A stretch of 49,318 nt of DNA from Candidatus Rokuibacteriota bacterium (lineage in GTDB: Bacteria; Methylomirabilota; Methylomirabilia; Rokubacteriales; CSP1-6), in the NCBI GenBank assembly GCA_003220345.1, contig QHSC01000083.1, positions 1 through 49,318 on the forward strand, in the 5' to 3' direction. Position numbers and translations under genes: made by a program. The notes beneath the pieces are model-generated. The model worked only from the letters and a program-made list of their open reading frames with translations, had not been told where the DNA came from and did not search any database. Position 1 is the first letter of the stretch; every line of letters begins with the position of its first letter. This document shows positions 10,102 through 34,014 of the stretch, piece by piece.

Positions 10102-11115
10102 TCAGGCCCCGAAGAACTCCACGAAGCGCGTCTTGATCTCCTCGTTGCGCTTCTCCAGCTCCTCGGGATCGACGAGGAGGAGCTTGAGCTCGCTGAGCTT
10201 CGGCCGGTCGGCGGGATACTTGACCTCGGGGTGCCCCGTGTAGAGGCCTTCGGTATCCGCGAGCACTTGCTGGATCTCGCGGCTGAAGAGGAAGTCCGTG
10301 AAGAGCTTGGCCGCGTTCGGATGGGGCGCGAAGATCGCGATGGCGGTGGGCGAGATGACGAGAGGCACGCCCTCCTTGGGGTAGACGATCTCCACCGGGT
10401 TTCCTTTCTTCTTGATCTGGTAGAAGGTGTAGTCCCCCCCGTTCACCGCCACCGGCCGCTCCCCCGAGGCGACCACGCCGGAGGGATCCACCGCGGACTG
10501 GACGAGCATGGGCTTGCTCTGCGCGAGCTGCTTGAAGTAATCCCAGCCGTGGAGGTGCACGAGGGCGAGCACGTGGGTGGCGATGACCCCGCTGTAACCC
10601 GGATGCGCCGTCACGAGCTTGCCTTTCCACTTGGGGTCGAGCAGGTCCTTCCACGTGCGCGGTGCCTCCGCCGCCGACACCGCCTTGGTGTTGTACGCGA
10701 TGACGGTGACGGTGGCGCGCAGGCCGTAGTGGTAGCCGTCCTTGTCCTTGAAGCTCGCGGGGAAGCGGTCGACGCCGGCCGGCGTGTGCTTCATGAGGAG
10801 CTTCTTCTCCTTCAGCAGCACGTAGTGCCCCGCGTCCGAGGTGTGGATCACGTCGACGTTCTTGATGTTGGCCTGCAGCTCCTGCATCACCCGCTGGAGG
10901 ATGCGCTGGGAGCCCGTGCGCTGCACCTCGACCTTGATCCCCGGGTAGGCCGTCTCGAAGAGCTTGGCCACCTTCTCCGAGCTGGTGAGGGCGAGCGAGG
11001 TGTACCAGACCACCTTGCCTTCCTTCTTCGCCGCCTCCACGCGCGCGTCCTGGGCGCAGGCGGGAGCGGCAGCGAAGAAGGCGGCGAGCACCGATAGTAC
11101 GAGAAGCTTGCGCAT
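10102..11115 (-). CDS. ABC transporter substrate-binding protein, FbpA/AfuA-like
   Basis: This periplasmic binding protein of about 337 residues has a Sec signal peptide (MRKLLVLSVLAAFFAAAPACAQ) and the FbpA-type opening EAAKKEGKVVWYTS. ATG 11115 is preferred over ATG 11121 because AGGGGA sits six bases before it and abuts the other. The paired tyrosines that hold ferric iron in classical FbpA are not evident, so iron is not a safe ligand. Co-transcription with an MmgE/PrpD enzyme makes a small organic acid an equally reasonable guess. Confidence 0.9.
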   Translation of the reverse strand: MRKLLVLSVLAAFFAAAPACAQDARVEAAKKEGKVVWYTSLALTSSEKVAKLFETAYPGIKVEVQRTGSQRILQRVMQELQANIKNVDVIHTSDAGHYVLLKEKKLLMKHTPAGVDRFPASFKDKDGYHYGLRATVTVIAYNTKAVSAAEAPRTWKDLLDPKWKGKLVTAHPGYSGVIATHVLALVHLHGWDYFKQLAQSKPMLVQSAVDPSGVVASGERPVAVNGGDYTFYQIKKKGNPVEIVYPKEGVPLVISPTAIAIFAPHPNAAKLFTDFLFSREIQQVLADTEGLYTGHPEVKYPADRPKLSELKLLLVDPEELEKRNEEIKTRFVEFFGA

Positions 11116-11125
11116 GGGCATTCCC

Positions 11126-12541
11126 CTAGGCGGTGAGAGATTCCATCAAGGGGGCGAGGCGCTCCAGCCGGTCGAGGCGGGCCACGGCCTCGACGACGCG
11201 GGCGGCCCGCGCCTCGGAGACGGCGAGGGTGGCATTGCCGCGGAACTTCGCCTCCATCTCCTCCCAGGTCATGGGCAGGTCGGGGCCTCCGCGTGGGCGA
11301 TCCTGCCGCTCCTCGAGCAGCCGCCCGTCGTCGAGGCGGATGGTGACGTCGCCGATGAACTGGCGCGGGTAGTCGATGCTCGGATCGATCTCGTACGATA
11401 CGCGCGAGGCCACCTGCAGCACCGCCTCGTCCCGCGCCGCCTCGTCGGTGAACTCGGCGAGTCCGGCGCGGCCTTTGACGAGGATGACCGCGAGCAGGTA
11501 GGGGAGGCTGAACTTCGCGGCATAGCCGTTGGGCGGCTTGTGCTTCGCCGCGAGGGGCTCCCAGAGGCGGGGCAGAGGTCCCTCCGCGGTGCGGCAGCGG
11601 ATCTGGGCGATCTGCTCGGGCTGGATCTTGTGCCGCTCGCGCAGCCTCAGCGCGCAGTCCATGTACGGTTGCGCGATGGAGCCGCACGGGTAGGGCTTGA
11701 AGGTCAGCTCCAGGAGCTCCCAGGCGCGCCCGAGCGTGCCGAGCAGCTCGTCCAGACGCGCGGCGTCGTGGCCGCCCGCGAAGGCCTGGTAGAAGCCGTG
11801 GGCGCCCTCGAAGACCGTTTCCGGCCCCGTGAAGCCGGACCGCGCGAGCAGCGCGGCCACGACGCCCGCATGGGCGGCCCAGCCCGGATGCAGCCGCTTC
11901 GTCCACGAGCCGTCCGTCAGGTATTCGATGATCCCGCCCGCCTGGCTTCCGCAGATCCCGAAGGCGGAGACGAGCTGGTCTTCCGTGAGTCCGCGGAGCC
12001 GGCCCGCGACGGCGGCCGCCGCGAAGCTTCCCGCGAGGGAGGTCGGGTGATAGTGGCGGGCGTGAAAGCGACCGGGCACGGCCAGCCCCACGCGGCACAT
12101 CACCTCGACTCCCGCGATCGCCGCCTCGAGGACGGCGCGACCGGAGGCGCCCGTGGCTTCGCCCACGGCCAGGGCCGTGGTCACGGCCACCGAGCCCGTG
12201 TGAACGATCGCATCCTCGCGCGTGTCGTCGAAGTCGAGGCCGTGGGCGAGCGTGCCGTTGGCGAGCACGGCATGCGACGCGCCCACGCGGGCGGCGGCGC
12301 CGATGAGGGTGCTCTCGGGGAGCCCGCCCAGGCTCTCGGTCGCTCGCAGGACGGCCCGGCCGAACTCCTCTTGCGACGAGGCCAGACAGCTCCCGATGAT
12401 GTCGAGAACGAGCTGCTTCGCCTTGTCCACGACGGGCGCGGGGACGTCATCCAGGGCCAGGCCGAGGGTGAAGCGCGCGTAGCGTCGGGCGACGGATGAA
12501 TGCGGCACGTGGGTTTGCCCGCCTCGTGGCGGGCGAGCCAT
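11126..12541 (-). CDS. MmgE/PrpD family protein
   Basis: This is about 471 residues of the MmgE/PrpD fold, which includes 2-methylcitrate dehydratase PrpD, cis-aconitate decarboxylase and related lyases or epimerases. Recognisable stretches are DIIGSCLASSQEEFGRAVL near the N-terminus, GASHAVLANGTLAHGLDFDDTRE, HYHPTSLAGSFAAAA, and LTFKPYPCGSIAQPYMDCAL. These are the conserved substrate-pocket segments of the family. The start is uncertain: ATG 12559, ATG 12541 or GTG 12508 are possible and none has a clear ribosome site. It leads the operon with the Fbp-type importer, separated from the binding-protein gene by about 10 bp, suggesting the enzyme acts on the imported compound. The exact reaction cannot be assigned. 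Confidence 0.88.
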   Translation of the reverse strand: MARPPRGGQTHVPHSSVARRYARFTLGLALDDVPAPVVDKAKQLVLDIIGSCLASSQEEFGRAVLRATESLGGLPESTLIGAAARVGASHAVLANGTLAHGLDFDDTREDAIVHTGSVAVTTALAVGEATGASGRAVLEAAIAGVEVMCRVGLAVPGRFHARHYHPTSLAGSFAAAAVAGRLRGLTEDQLVSAFGICGSQAGGIIEYLTDGSWTKRLHPGWAAHAGVVAALLARSGFTGPETVFEGAHGFYQAFAGGHDAARLDELLGTLGRAWELLELTFKPYPCGSIAQPYMDCALRLRERHKIQPEQIAQIRCRTAEGPLPRLWEPLAAKHKPPNGYAAKFSLPYLLAVILVKGRAGLAEFTDEAARDEAVLQVASRVSYEIDPSIDYPRQFIGDVTIRLDDGRLLEERQDRPRGGPDLPMTWEEMEAKFRGNATLAVSEARAARVVEAVARLDRLERLAPLMESLTA

Positions 12542-12697
12542 TTCTACTGAAGGCGCCACGACCTGTCAAGACAATCCGTGCCCGGCAACTATGCGATTTG
12601 GCGCCGGGAGATCGCGACGCACCGTGCGGAGGGCCCTCCTCGGACGCGAGCCGTCGGAAGCTTGGCGGGCGGAGGCTCCGTGATATGGTGGAAATCT

Positions 12698-13633
12698 ATG
12701 TCCCTTTCGCTCGACCTCATCCGCAGACTCGAAGCCAACGTGAGCCGCGCCCTCGTGGGCAAGCCCGAGGCCGTGCGGCTGGCCGTGGTGGGTCTGCTCG
12801 CCCGCGGCCACATCCTCATCGAGGACGTGCCCGGGGTGGGCAAGACCACGCTGGCCGCGGCCCTCGCCCGCTCCATCGGCGCCGGCTTCCAGCGCATCCA
12901 GTTCACCTCCGACATGCTGCCCTCGGACGTGATCGGCGTCAGCATCTGGGAGCCGACCAAGAGCGAGTTCGTCTTCAAGCCGGGGCCGCTCTTCACCAAT
13001 ATCGTGCTCGCCGACGAGATCAACCGCACAACGCCCAAGACGCAGTCGAGCCTGCTCGAAGCCATGAACGAAGCGCAGGTCTCGCTCGATCATTCGACCT
13101 ACCCGCTTCCCCAGCCCTTCATGGTGCTGGCGACCCAGAATCCACGCGAGCACGAGGGCACGTATCCTTTGCCCGAGTCTCAGCTCGACCGCTTTCTCCT
13201 GAGAATCCGCATCGGCTATCCGGGCGCTCTCGACGAGAAGGCCGTGCTGCGCGGCGCCGGCTCGCCCGGCCTCGAGACGCTCGTGCCCGTGCTGGATGGA
13301 CGCGAGGTGCTGGCGCTCCAGGAAGAGGCCGAAGGCGTGCGGGCAGAGGAGTCCGTGCTCGACTACCTCATGGCCCTCGTCGAGGCCACCCGTGTCTCCC
13401 CGCTGCTCTCGCTGGGGGTGAGCCCGCGCGGATCGCTGGCGCTCCTGCGCACGGCCCGCGCCCATGCCCTCATCGACGGCCGCGACTACCTCGTGCCCGA
13501 CGACGTGAAGCGTTTGGCCGTCGCCGCTCTCGCGCACCGGGTCCTCCTCAAGGGCCGCACGGCGCAGGGCAGCGGCATGGACGGCGAGGCGATCCTCCGA
13601 TCGATCGTCCAGGACGTACCCGTCCCGCGCTGA
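12698..13633 (+). CDS. MoxR family AAA+ ATPase
   Basis: This 311-residue cytoplasmic chaperone-like ATPase starts at MSLSLDLIRRLEANV. Walker A DVPGVGKT is at 43-50, Walker B IVLADEINR at 102-110, and the sensor/Arg-finger region includes ATQNPREHEGTYPLPESQLDRF, all diagnostic of MoxR. ATG 12698 follows GGTGGA. The frame opens upstream at 12578, but that part is unlike the family. It heads a MoxR, DUF58, transglutaminase cluster, a widely conserved trio in which MoxR is thought to help mature or insert partner proteins. Confidence 0.94.
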   Translation: MSLSLDLIRRLEANVSRALVGKPEAVRLAVVGLLARGHILIEDVPGVGKTTLAAALARSIGAGFQRIQFTSDMLPSDVIGVSIWEPTKSEFVFKPGPLFTNIVLADEINRTTPKTQSSLLEAMNEAQVSLDHSTYPLPQPFMVLATQNPREHEGTYPLPESQLDRFLLRIRIGYPGALDEKAVLRGAGSPGLETLVPVLDGREVLALQEEAEGVRAEESVLDYLMALVEATRVSPLLSLGVSPRGSLALLRTARAHALIDGRDYLVPDDVKRLAVAALAHRVLLKGRTAQGSGMDGEAILRSIVQDVPVPR

Positions 13634-13646
13634 TCCCGAGGCTGCC

Positions 13647-14678
13647 ATGAGGTGGGTCCCGAAGCGGACCTGGAGAGACAGCGAATGGTGGTGGCGGCCC
13701 TTCCGGCCGCGCCGGACCATCTGGCCCACCCGCGACGGCTGGTGGTGCCTGCTCGTCGTCATCGGGCTCGGCGTGGCCGCCATCAACACCGGCAACAATC
13801 TCCTCTATCTCCTCGTCTCGCTCCTCCTGAGCCTGATCGTCGTGTCCGGCGTGCTCTCGGAGCAGTCCATGCGCGGCGTGCACCTGGAGGCCGAGATTCC
13901 CGAGGAGATCTATGCGGGCGCGCCCGCCCTCTTCGGCGCGCTGGTCCAGAACGGCAAGCGCTGGCTCACCTCGTACTCCGTCACCCTCGAGCTCCTTGCG
14001 CGCGGCGGCCCCGCCCGTTTCATCTACGTGCCGAGGCTCGAGGCGGGCGCCGAGCGCTTCGTGACCTGGGAGGTGACCCTGCCCGCGCGCGGCCGCCACC
14101 GGCTGGCCGGCATCCGGCTGACCACGCGCTTTCCCTTCGGCCTCTTCGTCAAGGCGAGCCGGGTCATGCTCGAGGCAGACGTGCTCGTGTTCCCCGCCGT
14201 CCAGCCCATCTCGGCCGAAGCGCTTCAGCGGCTCGTGGGCTCGGGCACGGCCTCGGCGCGCCGGCGCGGGCGCGGCCACGATCTCTACAATCTCCGCGCC
14301 TACCGGCCGGGCGACGATCCGCGCCACATTCACTGGCGCTCGAGCGCGAAGACCGAGCAGCTCGTCGTGCGCGAGATGGAGGCCGAGACCACCGAGGACA
14401 CGCGCATCGTCCTCCGGGGCACGGGCGCGCAGGATCCGGCCCGGCTCGAAGCCGCGCTGTCCGAGGCCGCCTCCGCCACCGTGCATCTGATCCGCGCCGG
14501 CTCGGGCGTGGAGCTGGTCGGGCGCGGGATCGTGGTGCCTCTCGGCCGCGGACCGGGGCAGTCACGGCGCATCCTGACCGCCCTCGCCCTCTACCACCCG
14601 GGGGCGTTCCGCGCCGCCCCCGACACTCATGCGCGGGGCTGGCGCTCGCTCCGCGAGCTCCACATCGAGCTCGGCTGA
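13647..14678 (+). CDS. DUF58 domain-containing membrane-anchored protein
   Basis: This 343-residue protein has two closely spaced N-terminal membrane segments at about 32-70. The DUF58 core follows, with the signature YRPGDDPRHIHWRSSAKTEQL near residues 218-236. DUF58 proteins are usual partners of MoxR ATPases and often have a von Willebrand A-like fold. The gene begins 13 bp after moxR and its stop overlaps the next start by one base (TGATG), so translation is probably coupled. Confidence 0.92.
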   Translation: MRWVPKRTWRDSEWWWRPFRPRRTIWPTRDGWWCLLVVIGLGVAAINTGNNLLYLLVSLLLSLIVVSGVLSEQSMRGVHLEAEIPEEIYAGAPALFGALVQNGKRWLTSYSVTLELLARGGPARFIYVPRLEAGAERFVTWEVTLPARGRHRLAGIRLTTRFPFGLFVKASRVMLEADVLVFPAVQPISAEALQRLVGSGTASARRRGRGHDLYNLRAYRPGDDPRHIHWRSSAKTEQLVVREMEAETTEDTRIVLRGTGAQDPARLEAALSEAASATVHLIRAGSGVELVGRGIVVPLGRGPGQSRRILTALALYHPGAFRAAPDTHARGWRSLRELHIELG

Positions 14679-24723: not shown

Positions 24724-25167
24724 TCACCGGCAGAGCTGCCGGTGGTCGACCATGAGTCAGCGATCCTGGACGACCTTGATGCCGGCGCGCGCGAGCGTCT
24801 CGGCCACCTCGTCATTCCGGATGCCGAGCTGGAGCCAGACGGATTTCGGCTTCGCGGCCAGGATATCGAAGAGATGAGGCGGGATGTCCCGCGAGCGGCG
24901 GAAGACGTTGACCATGTCGACGGGCTCCGGAATCTCCGCGAGGGTGCGGTAGACGGGCTCGCCCAGGATCTCCGTCACGTCGGGGTAGTACACGGGCACG
25001 GGGACGATCTCGTAGCCGGCCTCCGCCATGTACTGCGGGACGTAGAAGGCCGGCTGATCGCTCTGCGCCTCCGTCTTGATGCCGAGCACGGCGATGCGGC
25101 GCGTGTCCTTCAAGATCGCCGCCATGCCTTCGCGCGACTCCACCAGGTTGTCCTGCCAGTCGGCCAT
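24724..25167 (-). CDS. CoA-binding protein (YccU-like), candidate selenoprotein with in-frame TGA
   Basis: This is a Rossmann-like CoA_binding domain: TRRIAVLGIKTE near residue 28, YEIVPVPVYYP, LGEPVYRTLAEIPEPVDMVNVFRR, VWLQLGIRN. Conventional reading stops at TGA 24759-24757 after VVQDR (136 residues). In this family the sequence normally runs on as DRC-LxVEH-R. Here the TGA falls exactly on that Cys, and the next ten codons give LMVDHRQLCR before a second TGA at 24726-24724. The codon is one base from TGC. A stem-loop follows at a bacterial-SECIS-like distance. Selenocysteine insertion would give 147 residues with Sec137. Alternatives are a nonsense mutation or a sequencing error. The family call is firm; the recoding is inference, put at about one in two. 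Confidence 0.85.
24725..24744 (-). promoter_or_regulatory. Candidate bacterial SECIS stem-loop behind the in-frame TGA
   Basis: On the minus-strand transcript the arms CACCGGCA and UGCCGGUG pair over 8 bp around a GCUC tetraloop that begins with G at 24736. Twenty bases lie between the UGA (ending 24757) and the loop. The bacterial SECIS model, as I recall it, asks for 16-37 nt spacing and a G in the first two loop positions; both are met. The region has no U-tract. It could also act as a terminator between the convergent genes. Confidence 0.5.
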
Positions 25168-28812: not shown

Positions 28813-28846
28813 GCGGGGCGCACCTTAGCGGATCGTGACTCGACTG

Positions 28847-29875
28847 TCAACGAGGCCCGGACAGCTCCTGGCGCGCGAGGGCGGCGCCGGCGCCCAGGGC
28901 GTGGAGCTTGGCGCGGGCCAGCTCGCGGTCGAGGGGCACCATGCCGCAATTGGTGCACGGGAAGAGTCGAGACGGCGCCACGTGACGCAGGGCCTCGCGG
29001 ATGACCGCGGCGACCTGCGCGGGCGTCTCCACCTCCTCGTTGGCCACATCGACGGCGCCCACGAGCACGTCCTTGTCGCCGAGCAGGCCGAGCAGGGAGA
29101 TGGGCACGCGCGAGTTGGCGCACTCGAGAGAGACGCCGCCGATCCGGCTCGCCGCGAGCAGGGGAAAGGTCTGCTCGTACTGCCGCCACTCCCCGCCCAG
29201 GGTCTTCTTCCAGTCCGTGTTGGCCTTGATCCCGTAGCCGTAGCAGATGTGGACGACCGTCCGGCAGGGAAGCCCTTCCACCGCCCGGTTCAGCGCCTCG
29301 ATGCCCCAGTCACGCACCTCGTCCATGTAGACGTTGAAGGCCGGCTCGTCGAGCTGGATCACGTCCACGCCCACGGCGGCGAGCTCGCGCGCTTCCTCGT
29401 TGATGAGCGAGGCGATGGCGAGGCCGAGCTTGGCGCGGCTGCCGTAGTAGGCGTCGTGGATGGTGTCCACCACCGTCATCGGACCGGGCATGGTGAACTT
29501 GATCCGGCGCCCCGTCGCGGTGCGGAGAAACTGCGCCTCGTCGCGGTGGATGGGGCCACGGCGCCGGAGCGGTCCCGCCACCGTGGGCACCTCCGCCTTG
29601 TAGCGGTCGGCGCGGATCCCGATGGTGACCATCTTCGAGAAGTCCACGCCCTCGAGCTGTTCGACGAACCCCCACACGAAGTGCCGGCGCGTCTGCTCGC
29701 CGTCGGTCACGATGTCGATCCCCGCCGCCTCCTGATCGCGAAGGGCCAGGCGCACCGCGTCGCGCTTGCCTTCCTCGAGCGCAGCCCCCTCGAGCCGCCA
29801 CGGCGCCCACAGCGTGCGGGGCGCGGCGAGCCAGGCAGGCTTGGGCAGGCTGCCGGCGATGGTGGTGTCGAGCAT
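28847..29875 (-). CDS. Cobalamin-independent methionine synthase C-terminal domain-like protein
   Basis: This 342-residue TIM barrel corresponds to the MetE C-terminal half only, about the length of archaeal MetE-like proteins. It contains MLDTTIAGSLPKPAWL at the start, GIDIVTDGEQTR, VDVIQLDEPAFNV, HICYGYG (His and Cys zinc-ligand region) and CTNCGMVPL (Cys zinc ligand). The organism also adenosylates cobalamin, so this may be a methyltransferase on another substrate rather than methionine synthase. In actinobacteria and archaea such short forms take methyl groups from diverse donors. Confidence 0.9.
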   Translation of the reverse strand: MLDTTIAGSLPKPAWLAAPRTLWAPWRLEGAALEEGKRDAVRLALRDQEAAGIDIVTDGEQTRRHFVWGFVEQLEGVDFSKMVTIGIRADRYKAEVPTVAGPLRRRGPIHRDEAQFLRTATGRRIKFTMPGPMTVVDTIHDAYYGSRAKLGLAIASLINEEARELAAVGVDVIQLDEPAFNVYMDEVRDWGIEALNRAVEGLPCRTVVHICYGYGIKANTDWKKTLGGEWRQYEQTFPLLAASRIGGVSLECANSRVPISLLGLLGDKDVLVGAVDVANEEVETPAQVAAVIREALRHVAPSRLFPCTNCGMVPLDRELARAKLHALGAGAALARQELSGPR

Positions 29876-29900
29876 TCCGGCTGCATGGTATCATCGCGCC

Positions 29901-30164
29901 GTGAAATATTTGCCCCTCCTCGTGCCGGTCGCCATCCTGATCGCATCGGCGTGCGGCTCGGCCACCGACAAGCAGTGGTACAAGCCGAACGTCGACTACA
30001 CGGCGGCCGACTTCGAGCGCGACCGTATCGAGTGCACACCGAAGAAGAAGTCACTCGACGAGACCTGCCTGAGGGACAAGGGCTGGCTGCCGCTCTCGGG
30101 CGATGTCGGGCCGGCCGTCAAGGCGCCGTCCATCCCCGTTCGCCAGAAGGGCAACAAGTACTAA
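29901..30164 (+). CDS. Small putative lipoprotein, hypothetical
   Basis: This 87-residue protein starts at GTG 29901. A hydrophobic N-terminus VKYLPLLVPVAILIASACGS ends in a lipobox-like ASAC, so the mature protein would begin at Cys. The remainder is polar, contains two further Cys (about residues 37 and 48) that could form a disulfide, and ends NKY. It overlaps the next frame by 62 bases if that gene starts at ATG 30103. I recognise no family. Confidence 0.6.
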   Translation: MKYLPLLVPVAILIASACGSATDKQWYKPNVDYTAADFERDRIECTPKKKSLDETCLRDKGWLPLSGDVGPAVKAPSIPVRQKGNKY

Positions 30165-30780
30165 CCTGCGCGGCATCATCTTCGACTTCGGTGGCGTTCT
30201 CTGGGACATGCGCTGGGATGTCGCCCGCGCCCTCGACCAGGCGCACGGGCTGCCGCGCTCGTCCGTGTTCGACACCCTCTACCGCAGCGACACCTGGCGA
30301 GACATCGAGCGGGGCCGGGGCGACCGTCAGGCCTGGCTCGAGGAAGCGCACCGGACGCTCGAGGAGCGTGCCGGCCACCCTCTCCCACGTCTGCACGATG
30401 AGTGGCGCCGGGCGCAGGGTCCCATCGAGGCCAACCTGAGCCTCGTCCGTGACCTGCGCGCCTCGCACAAGCTCGGGGTGCTGAGCAATGCCGACAGCTC
30501 GCTGCGCGACCGCCTCGAGCGCGAGATGGCCATCCACCATCTCTTCCACGACATCGTCTGCTCGGCGGAGGTGGGCATGGCCAAGCCCGAGCCGGCCGTC
30601 TACGTGATGGCCGCCGAGCGGCTCGGGATACCGCCCAGCGACTGTGTGTTCGTGGACGACCTCGACACCAATGTCGAGGCGGCCCGGCAGGTCGGCATGG
30701 CGGGCGTTCTCTTCCGGCTGGACAAGGGCGACGATCTCCGGGTCCAGCTCGCCGGTCTCGGCGTGCGGCCGCGAGGCTGA
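30103..30780 (+). CDS. HAD superfamily hydrolase (HAD-IA, YihX-like)
   Basis: This HAD phosphatase has motif I GIIFDFGGVLWD (the YihX-like form, with Gly where the second Asp usually lies), motif II LSNAD, motif III KPEPAVY and motif IV FVDDLDTNVEAA. The start is unclear. ATG 30103 gives 225 residues but overlaps the lipoprotein gene by 62 bases and adds an Arg-rich lead. CTG 30166, three codons before motif I, would be compact. Substrate unknown. It is followed by the LLM gene after 3 bp. Confidence 0.86.
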   Translation: MSGRPSRRRPSPFARRATSTNLRGIIFDFGGVLWDMRWDVARALDQAHGLPRSSVFDTLYRSDTWRDIERGRGDRQAWLEEAHRTLEERAGHPLPRLHDEWRRAQGPIEANLSLVRDLRASHKLGVLSNADSSLRDRLEREMAIHHLFHDIVCSAEVGMAKPEPAVYVMAAERLGIPPSDCVFVDDLDTNVEAARQVGMAGVLFRLDKGDDLRVQLAGLGVRPRG

Positions 30781-31746: not shown

Positions 31747-31768
31747 AGTGCTGTGCTAGGGTGGAATC

Positions 31769-32818
31769 ATGGAAGGCGCCGTCGCCCCCACTGCCCCCTC
31801 CAGCCTGCTCCGGCCCGGCAAGATGTTCGTCAATCCGCTCTTCGACTATCTGCTGATCGGCGGCATCGTGAGCTGGATCGCCGGCGGCATCATCTACGGC
31901 GCGGGTGTCCGCTACAACGAAGCGGATCTCTTCTGGGTCCTGCTCGTGTCCAACTGGGCGCATTTCGCCGCCTCGACGGTGCGCCTGTACACCAAGCCCG
32001 ACGCCGTGCGCACCTGGCCCTTCCTCACCCTGGCGTTTCCCGTCGTCACCATCGCCGTGGTCAGCGCCGTGGTCGCCCTCGGCGAGCCCGCGGGGCGCTA
32101 CTTCTTCGCCCTCTACTTTCTCTGGTCGCCGTTCCACTACTCGGCGCAGGCGTATGGCCTGAGCGTGATGTACGCCTACCGGTCCGGGACCACGCTCGCG
32201 CCCATGGACCGCACCCTGATTCGCTGGACGTGCCTGCTGCCGTTCTTCTGGACGCTGCTCCAGCCCCAGGGCGGGCTCGGACTCGTCCTGCCCGCGGGGT
32301 TCTTCGCGAGCTTCCCGCTGCGCGCGGCGCTGAGCCAGACCCTGACCGTGCTCTCGCTGGTCGTGCCCATCGCTGCCTTCCTCTGGCTCCGGAGACAGCG
32401 CGGCATCACGCTACCCGCCATCAGCCTCGTGGTGATCTTCTCCAATGCCATCTGGTGGACGGCCTTCAACTGGTTCGACGCCTTCATCTGGGCCACCGTC
32501 TTCCACGGCCTCCAGTACCTCGCCATCGTGCTCGTCTTCCACATCAAGGATCAGGAGCGGCTCGGCGTCAGCGCGCACGGCTGGCTCTACCACGCGGCGT
32601 GCTTCTACGGCACCTGCCTCGTCCTGGGCTTCGTGCTCTTCCAGAACTGGCCGCAGCTCTACTGGCTGGCGGGCTACGACATCGGGCGGGCGACGTTGCT
32701 GGTGGTGGCGGTCATCAACATCCACCACTTCATCGTGGATGCCTTCATCTGGAAGCTGCGCCGGGATCCCAACTACAAGAACGTGGTCGACGTCCCCGCT
32801 TCCGTGGTCGCAGTCTGA
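31769..32818 (+). CDS. Histidine-rich multi-pass membrane protein, function unknown
   Basis: This 349-residue protein has eight or nine predicted membrane segments, starting after FVNPLFDYLLIGG. Several His are placed at membrane edges in conserved-looking contexts: NWAHF, SPFHYSAQAYG, FHGLQYLAIVLVFH, and INIHHFIVDAFIWKLRR near the C-terminus. The spread of HxxxH- and HH-type sites resembles membrane metal-dependent oxygenases and desaturases, but I cannot name a family. AGGGTGG precedes ATG 31769. Its stop lies five bases from the stop of the convergent P450 gene. Confidence 0.78.
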   Translation: MEGAVAPTAPSSLLRPGKMFVNPLFDYLLIGGIVSWIAGGIIYGAGVRYNEADLFWVLLVSNWAHFAASTVRLYTKPDAVRTWPFLTLAFPVVTIAVVSAVVALGEPAGRYFFALYFLWSPFHYSAQAYGLSVMYAYRSGTTLAPMDRTLIRWTCLLPFFWTLLQPQGGLGLVLPAGFFASFPLRAALSQTLTVLSLVVPIAAFLWLRRQRGITLPAISLVVIFSNAIWWTAFNWFDAFIWATVFHGLQYLAIVLVFHIKDQERLGVSAHGWLYHAACFYGTCLVLGFVLFQNWPQLYWLAGYDIGRATLLVVAVINIHHFIVDAFIWKLRRDPNYKNVVDVPASVVAV

Positions 32819-32823
32819 ACCGC

Positions 32824-34014
32824 CTAGAACGAAACCGGGAGCGCGCTCAGGCCCCGCAAGGTCAAGCTCTGGCGGTACTGGGGCGTGTCCGTGGCCAGGG
32901 CCAGCTTCGGCATCCGCTGCAGCAGCGCATTGATGGCGATCTGGCCCTCGATGCGCGCGAGGGGGGCGCCGAGGCAGAAGTGAATTCCCCAGCCGAAGGC
33001 GATGTGACGATTGTCCGCGCGCGTGATGTCGAGACAGTCGGGGTCGGGAAACTGGGCCGGATCACGGTCGGCGGCCCCGATGAAGGGCAGGACCAGCTCG
33101 CCTTTGCCGATCGTGCGGCCGCCGATGGTGACGTCTTCGCTCGGAATGCGCGCGGTACGCTGCACGGGGCCGTCGTACCGTAGCAGCTCCTCGACGGCGC
33201 TCGCGATCAGCCCGGGGTTCTCGCGCAGCCGCCGGAGCTCGTGGGTATGGCGGAGCAGCGCGAGAGTGCCGTTGCCGATCAGGTTGACGGTGGTCTCGTG
33301 TCCGGCCACGAGCAACAGGATGCAGGTGGCGAGCAGCTCATCCTCGCTGAGCGTGTCGCCGGCTTCCTCGGCGGCGATGAGAGCCGAGAGCATGTCACCA
33401 CGCGGTGAGGCGCGGCGCTCGGCAATGAGCGCGCGGAAGTAGTCGCTGAGCGCGTGGCGCGAGGCCATGCTCCTCGCCGCCACTTCCGAGTCCGGAGGCA
33501 GCCAGATCGCATCGAGGCCGCGGGCGATATCGAGCCCCCACTGCTTGAAGCGATCTCGGTCTTCCACGGGAACACCGAGGAGCTCGCAGATGACGATGAC
33601 AGGCAGCGGGTAGGCGAAGTCCTCGATCAGGTCCATGGAGCCTGCGGTCTCCACACGCTCGAGGAGCCCGTCGACGATCCGCTGGATGTGCGGACGCAAG
33701 ACCTCCACCACGCGCGGCGTGAAGGCCTTGCTGACGAGGCCGCGCAGTCGCGTGTGGTCTGGTGGATCGCGGTCGAGCATCGAGAGGCCGATGCCGGGCG
33801 GGGCGAATCCGAGCCGTGCGGCCACGAATGCCGCGATCGCCTCCTTCGCGAAGCGCGGATCGCGCAACGCCACGAGGACGTCCTCGTATCGTGTCAGCAC
33901 CCAGAACCCGCGGGGGTTGTGGTGGACGGGCTCCTCGGCGCGCAGCCGGTGGTAGGTCGGATACGGGTTGGCGATGAATTCGGCATCCATCGGGTTGAAC
34001 GTGATCTCGCCCAT
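32824..34014 (-). CDS. Cytochrome P450
   Basis: This 396-residue soluble bacterial P450 has I-helix AGHETTVN, the ExxR helix in EELLRYD (with ERxR-like context) and the heme-thiolate loop FGWGIHFCLGAPLARIEG. Length is normal. It is a monooxygenase that needs a ferredoxin and reductase, neither seen nearby. CYP family and substrate cannot be assigned by eye. It is monocistronic and converges with the membrane protein gene, leaving a 5-bp gap. Confidence 0.95.
   Translation of the reverse strand: MGEITFNPMDAEFIANPYPTYHRLRAEEPVHHNPRGFWVLTRYEDVLVALRDPRFAKEAIAAFVAARLGFAPPGIGLSMLDRDPPDHTRLRGLVSKAFTPRVVEVLRPHIQRIVDGLLERVETAGSMDLIEDFAYPLPVIVICELLGVPVEDRDRFKQWGLDIARGLDAIWLPPDSEVAARSMASRHALSDYFRALIAERRASPRGDMLSALIAAEEAGDTLSEDELLATCILLLVAGHETTVNLIGNGTLALLRHTHELRRLRENPGLIASAVEELLRYDGPVQRTARIPSEDVTIGGRTIGKGELVLPFIGAADRDPAQFPDPDCLDITRADNRHIAFGWGIHFCLGAPLARIEGQIAINALLQRMPKLALATDTPQYRQSLTLRGLSALPVSF

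Follow-up and report, generated by a model that had tools for sequence, protein, structure and literature searches.

Characterized selenoproteins mostly have a thioredoxin-like fold, according to the part of a review on these proteins that was available to us (PMC13188914). Table 1 of that review, so far as covered, holds 119 bacterial selenoprotein families or subfamilies by the review's own count, and neither PF13380 nor a CoA-binding protein is among them. The protein described below probably has in common with the selenoproteins in those sections (PMC13188914) a UGA for selenocysteine (Sec) with Cys homologs, a bSECIS-type hairpin and Sec machinery, but it is Rossmann-type rather than thioredoxin-like and has no UxxC or CxxU motif. 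The nearest by name in the same table, as far as it was seen, is a Sec-containing FAD-dependent oxidoreductase (CoA-disulfide reductase; PMC13188914), which, going by its name, acts on the thiol or disulfide of CoA. CoA-disulfide reductase belongs to another family, TIGR03385, whereas our protein matches PF13380 only.

The closest described proteins are TT1466 (1iuk/1iul) and PH1109 (2d59, 2d5a). They share with our protein the PF13380 (CoA_binding_2) domain over near-full length, the fold, which for this family we take to be Rossmann-type, and the terminal motif around a conserved Cys; the 1iuk sequence keeps DRCLMVEHKRL there. Our protein differs from both in its probable Sec in place of that Cys and in a SECIS-type hairpin within the codons of the last helix. 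Succinyl-CoA synthetase alpha is similar in fold (TM 0.53-0.60) and shares a motif before Cys123/Sec137, but it is a ligase with further domains. Cys123 of that subunit presumably lies near the CoA site. Among the matches listed from the open-license literature, none deals with what the conserved Cys of the PF13380 family does.

The window, i.e., the whole 49,318 bp stretch of DNA analyzed, is contig 397 of a 5.6-Mb draft genome (G000; 429 contigs, 96.63% complete, 7.27% estimated contamination). The putative selenoprotein gene occupies 24724..25167; the original prediction had these coordinates right, and the strand, which it left unstated, is minus. The frame opens with an ATG at 25167 and runs through 136 codons to an in-frame TGA at codon 137 (24759-24757). 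Behind it are codons 138-147 (24727..24756), which read LMVDHRQLCR, and a second TGA (24726-24724) that we take as the true stop. The gene's own terminator is therefore the same codon as the one at position 137; TAA stands in its place in two relatives, G001 and G004. The predicted product has 147 residues including Sec137, and a pipeline treating the first TGA as a stop would annotate the gene 11 residues short.

Residues 23-142 match PF13380 (E-value 8e-35, 120.2 bits against a curated cut-off of 22.8). Because the match spans these residues, homology continues across the TGA, and the extended C-terminus agrees with the family up to residue 142. A Pfam search found no other domain, and no ligase domain, in the 147-residue protein. 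No NCBIfam model reached its cut-off; there were two weak partial matches far below theirs. An AlphaFold2 model, built with Sec written as Cys from 27 of 41 proposed alignment rows, has a pLDDT of 96.6 and a pTM of 0.91. All 27 rows have C in the column of residue 137, two of them being TGA forms written as C. The model predicts a strand at 131-133, followed by residue 137 and a final helix at 138-146. Since this predicted helix lies behind residue 137, a stop there would remove it. TT1466 (1iuk; E-value 2.5e-13, TM 0.84, rmsd 1.7, 41% identity) and PH1109 take the top ranks in Foldseek, and ADP-forming CoA ligases and succinyl-CoA synthetase alpha, including the C123 mutants 2nu6 to 2nua, follow at lower ranks (TM 0.53-0.60, E-value 1.4e-3 and weaker). 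Cys occupies the aligned position in 5/5 solved homologs among the alignments listed.

The codon at this column was read across genomes. A table of 135 rows has 10 TGA, but two rows (L105 and L195) are one genome, leaving 134 distinct loci with TGC in 93, TGT in 32 and TGA in 9. The in-frame TGA of our gene thus falls exactly at the conserved Cys of the family, as originally proposed, and, with nine TGA among 134 loci, its placement at this codon is more than chance. Elsewhere in the 125 Cys loci there is one in-frame TGA. It lies at residue 49 of a Cys-form homolog (L067), away from the conserved Cys, and is either an error or the mark of a broken gene.

Close relatives of the protein are present in several phyla, and a homolog was found at an E-value of 0.001 in 37 of 60 genomes, the window's own included. 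TGA occupies the codon in four of the five genomes of the window's genus (G000, G001, G003, G004) and TGC in the fifth (G002). Across the window's class, 46/95 genomes match at 1e-20, and an in-frame stop occurs only in the same four; 37 of the 48 listed matches were read by codon, and the other 11 show no internal stop. The best 80 of 157 contig relatives, all read by codon, include a single TGA at this position, in a chromosome record of Candidatus Binatia (OX638375.1, L105). In Binatia, the second class, 18/148 genomes match at 1e-30 and five of the 18 have TGA. The alternation of TGC and TGA anticipated for related genomes is thus found both within the window's genus and in a second class. 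In a tree of 133 rows, from which L105 (the genome of L195) and the short L034 were excluded and in which L143 (codon TGC) is present as a fragment, Sec appears in three separate places intermixed with Cys rows. Well-supported branches force a minimum of five changes of the Sec label, although the alignment has few columns, as the program warned; gains and reversions are indistinguishable in this tree. The tree also separates two subtypes of the family in the window's class, L020-L027 with L142 and L028-L048 (without L034) with L143-L149. Where the second strand was read, one subtype has PVPVY and the other a PVNP-like sequence, and TGA occurs only in the first.

The DNA behind the TGA is conserved up to the second stop. 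Between G000 and G003, identity is 376/408 over codons 1-136, 33/33 over codons 137-147 and 18/33 in the stretch that begins with the second stop. Four of the five genus members were compared pairwise; the remaining five pairs have 28-30/33 over codons 137-147 and 10-13/33 in the stretch thereafter. Together with the PF13380 match, the G000/G003 identity provides conserved coding sequence behind an in-frame UGA, as looked for in a selenoprotein gene. The encoded amino acids vary by lineage (HRQLCR, HRRLRR, HRRFAG, HRSPAATFP), and a hairpin persists there.

In the window, this putative bSECIS hairpin lies at 24725..24744 on the minus strand (positions counted by hand) and has an 8-bp stem (CACCGGCA/UGCCGGUG) with a GCUC loop at 24736-24733. 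The stem, the loop and the distance of 20 nt from UGA to loop are as first described, and the folding energy is -13.7 kcal/mol. The 3' arm reaches into the final stop codon and takes in its first two bases. Published bSECIS rules, taken from the part of the review available (PMC13188914), ask for a loop of 3-9 nt, a stem of 4-16 bp, a G in the first two loop bases, a spacing of 16-37 nt and a minimum free energy of -7.5 or lower. In a scripted check, the window hairpin satisfied all of them, and those of 8/9 TGA genes, the window's among them, did so compared to 13/124 Cys genes; the count excludes L105 (again the genome of L195) and L034, which has too little sequence behind the codon. The ninth TGA gene (L192) falls short in energy alone, at -6.7 kcal/mol with a G-U pair. 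The distance from the UGA to the start of the loop is 20 nt in 8/9 TGA genes and 23 nt in the remaining one (G095). Within the genus, two stem pairs changed on both sides: pair 1 is A-U or G-C, and pair 3 is G-C or C-G. The closest Cys relative, in G002, has a C-C mismatch at pair 3 that breaks the hairpin. Among five close Cys relatives in the window's class the best energy is -5.1, and the second class has 2/13 Cys genes that pass -7.5. The observed hairpin was equalled by only 3 to 176 of 2000 random synonymous recodings per gene, which counts in its favor.

Folding of single sequences says less. Folding z-scores range from -1.09 to -2.48 over four cuts of the window, and they are -0.09, -1.52 and +0.24 in three TGA relatives vs. 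-1.26 in the Cys-form G002. Folding energy alone is weak in such GC-rich DNA, the TGA relatives doing no better than the Cys form, and so the case rests on comparison and not on one fold. The Rfam model RF00031 (SECIS_1) has no match in the window's genome, and the same model is silent in 14/14 control genomes, so that its silence carries no information. The stem of G000 and G003 (L203, L204) also includes the TGC codon of an extra Cys146, which is absent from the other seven TGA forms.

The original prediction called for selA, selB, selC (tRNA-Sec) and selD in the same genome, and all four are present in G000. The selB match (338.2 bits, over the family cut-off) is truncated by the edge of contig 107. 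The tRNA-Sec (67.9 bits, over the Rfam cut-off) is identified by ARAGORN as SeC with anticodon tca, and selA (584.6 bits) lies 1.4 kb behind it on contig 22. In G001, selB and selA are side by side, with tRNA-Sec about 1.35 kb beyond selA; because these genes are adjacent there, an assembly break probably explains why they lie on two contigs in G000. Contamination was set aside as the source of selB in G000: the SelB is 85% identical to that of the congener G002, which makes binning contamination unlikely. The Rfam tRNA-Sec model also scored over its cut-off in 5/14 control genomes, which shows its limited specificity, and its score alone is not decisive; selB was over cut-off in 2/14 controls, selD in 2/14 and selA in 1/14.

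The best selD in G000 carries a TGA of its own (context GAG-TGA-ASK). Downstream of the selD TGA in the genus, a palindromic stem with its loop at about 20 nt can be read by eye and is a further candidate. A second selD match without TGA (G000:C175:664-1575) lies inside a 746-residue open frame, with similar ones in G003 and G006, and is perhaps a fused SelD. More broadly, selB is over cut-off in 37/40 genomes around the window's genome and in 16/18 homolog-bearing Binatia genomes. Six of the nine TGA genomes have it (G000, G001, G095, G220, G222, G223). No selB over cut-off was found in the drafts of the other three (G003, G004, G221), and in G003 and G004 neither selA nor tRNA-Sec was found over cut-off. 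Both of the latter have a TGA-bearing selD, which suggests that selA, selB and tRNA-Sec may be missing there through an assembly gap.

In the decoding that we propose, SelB with Sec-tRNA(Sec) would read UGA 137 as Sec, assisted by the hairpin, whose first base lies 12 nt behind that codon, and the ribosome would then proceed to the TGA at 24726-24724. Judging by its family name and fold, the protein probably binds CoA, which would sit in the Rossmann-type cleft with its pantetheine end facing Sec137, where the last helix begins. Sec137 would form a selenenyl-sulfide with CoA, or would attack a CoA disulfide or a peroxide, and CoA-SH or another small thiol would resolve the product; Cys relatives would carry out the same reaction more slowly. 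Of the nine TGA forms, five contain no other Cys, and each of the remaining four has a single one, at three unrelated positions. Because no Cys is common to the TGA forms, a shared resolving thiol would have to come from outside, and CoA is the obvious candidate. The window protein and succinyl-CoA synthetase alpha both read A-G-[VI]-[RK]-x-[IV]-x-x-x-Cys/Sec without gaps, which suggests that Sec137 may be placed like Cys123, near the CoA thiol. Comparing profiles against a single SucD sequence gave no significant match, so this correspondence is by eye only. We infer a redox or thiol role for Sec137, which probably reacts with the CoA thiol or a CoA disulfide. The mechanism as a whole is put forward tentatively, and we think it somewhat more apt to be wrong than right.

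The TGA could be an ordinary stop that ends the protein at Arg136, with the conserved bases behind it left over from the Cys form or serving as a terminator hairpin. The frame is indeed closed under table 11, the stem is located at the gene's end, and the three TGA-carrying drafts named above have no selB over cut-off. Such a stop, however, would cut off the helix at 138-146 that is predicted with high confidence. Nor would it account for nine TGA at the Cys codon in several lineages when all other positions in the set together have one in frame, for identity that stays at 33/33 up to the second stop and then drops to 18/33, or for the two stem pairs altered on both sides. We regard this reading as very improbable. 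A one-base assembly or sequencing error, which the original prediction had itself raised, might be expected from a draft of 429 contigs with 7.27% estimated contamination, but nine genomes from two classes share this TGA, among them the chromosome record OX638375.1. Its recurrence in independent genomes leaves the chance of an error negligible. The open frame past the TGA is silent on the identity of the inserted residue, so that a suppressor tRNA or a change of code might insert another amino acid. The genome has a full Sec system with tRNA-SeC (tca), though, the aligned residue is Cys in 125 other loci, and TGA is also the final stop of the same gene; readthrough of this kind is less probable still than an ordinary stop. 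Taken together, the comparisons make it very likely that the window gene is a bacterial selenoprotein gene in which UGA 137 is read as Sec.

A selenoprotein need not use its Sec in redox chemistry. Sec137 could be an acyl-transfer nucleophile, forming a seleno-ester with acyl-CoA, or a sulfur/selenium carrier or a metal ligand. CoA ligases have this fold too, for example succinyl-CoA synthetase alpha, with its Cys123 mutated in 2nu6 to 2nua, and the divergent neighbor of the gene is a cobalamin enzyme and not a redoxin. Against such roles, Pfam finds no ligase domain in the 147 residues, and the review, in the part seen, considers most uncharacterized selenoproteins likely to be redox proteins (PMC13188914). 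We consider a non-redox Sec137 rather unlikely, without dismissing it. Returning to the redox reading, the protein might found a new selenoprotein family in which the CoA thiol and the single Sec make a one-Sec redox centre, as a CoA-disulfide reductase, a CoA-dependent peroxidase or a de-CoAlating enzyme. So specific an assignment is speculative, and we would lean against it for now. If true, the widespread YccU-like Cys proteins would be slower thiol counterparts of a CoA-dependent selenoenzyme. Several lineages have Sec where others have Cys, and this natural exchange hints strongly at a catalytic residue.

We did not find a CoA-binding selenoprotein among the literature matches listed, including the excerpt of PMC9312308. 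There is none in the accessible portion of PMC9312934, including at all five words beginning with CoA there, and the main text of PMC12013277 (deep-Sep), as far as it was available, has no word beginning with CoA. According to the sections seen of the review (PMC13188914), Deng et al. (2026) predicted that one Methylomirabilota MAG has 63 selenoprotein genes, and an earlier listing of a PF13380 selenoprotein in that work is possible. Within the literature covered, we found no published mention of this selenoprotein family; our high confidence is in the gene. A Rossmann-type protein with a single Sec would thereby be added to the selenoprotein catalogue.

Four long frames on the plus strand of the window (10964-12496, 12496-13647, 28835-30436 and 31753-33180) have no Pfam match and may be wrong frames in GC-rich DNA. 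An alpha/beta-hydrolase group joins both classes (a piece about 6 kb away in G000 and single genes in G220 to G223), and we took this as chance; the copies in G220, G222 and the window were typed by Pfam. By their coordinates, the other groups joining both classes are frames that overlap the selenoprotein gene itself. A DUF72 gene on one side of the gene occurs there again only in G003 among 19 loci. On the other side, a divergent cobalamin adenosyltransferase gene (PF01923; 25216..25827, plus strand) is kept throughout the window's class where compared, in 9/9 close loci and, with wider flanks, in 6/6 genomes. The same search covered 10 other loci, all of which lack it beside the gene, and it is likewise absent from the second-class loci when their wider flanks are included. 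The idea of a conserved partner in an operon was set aside, and any functional link between the adenosyltransferase and the selenoprotein would be hypothetical. The starts of the two divergent genes are 48 bases apart, and they possibly share a control region.
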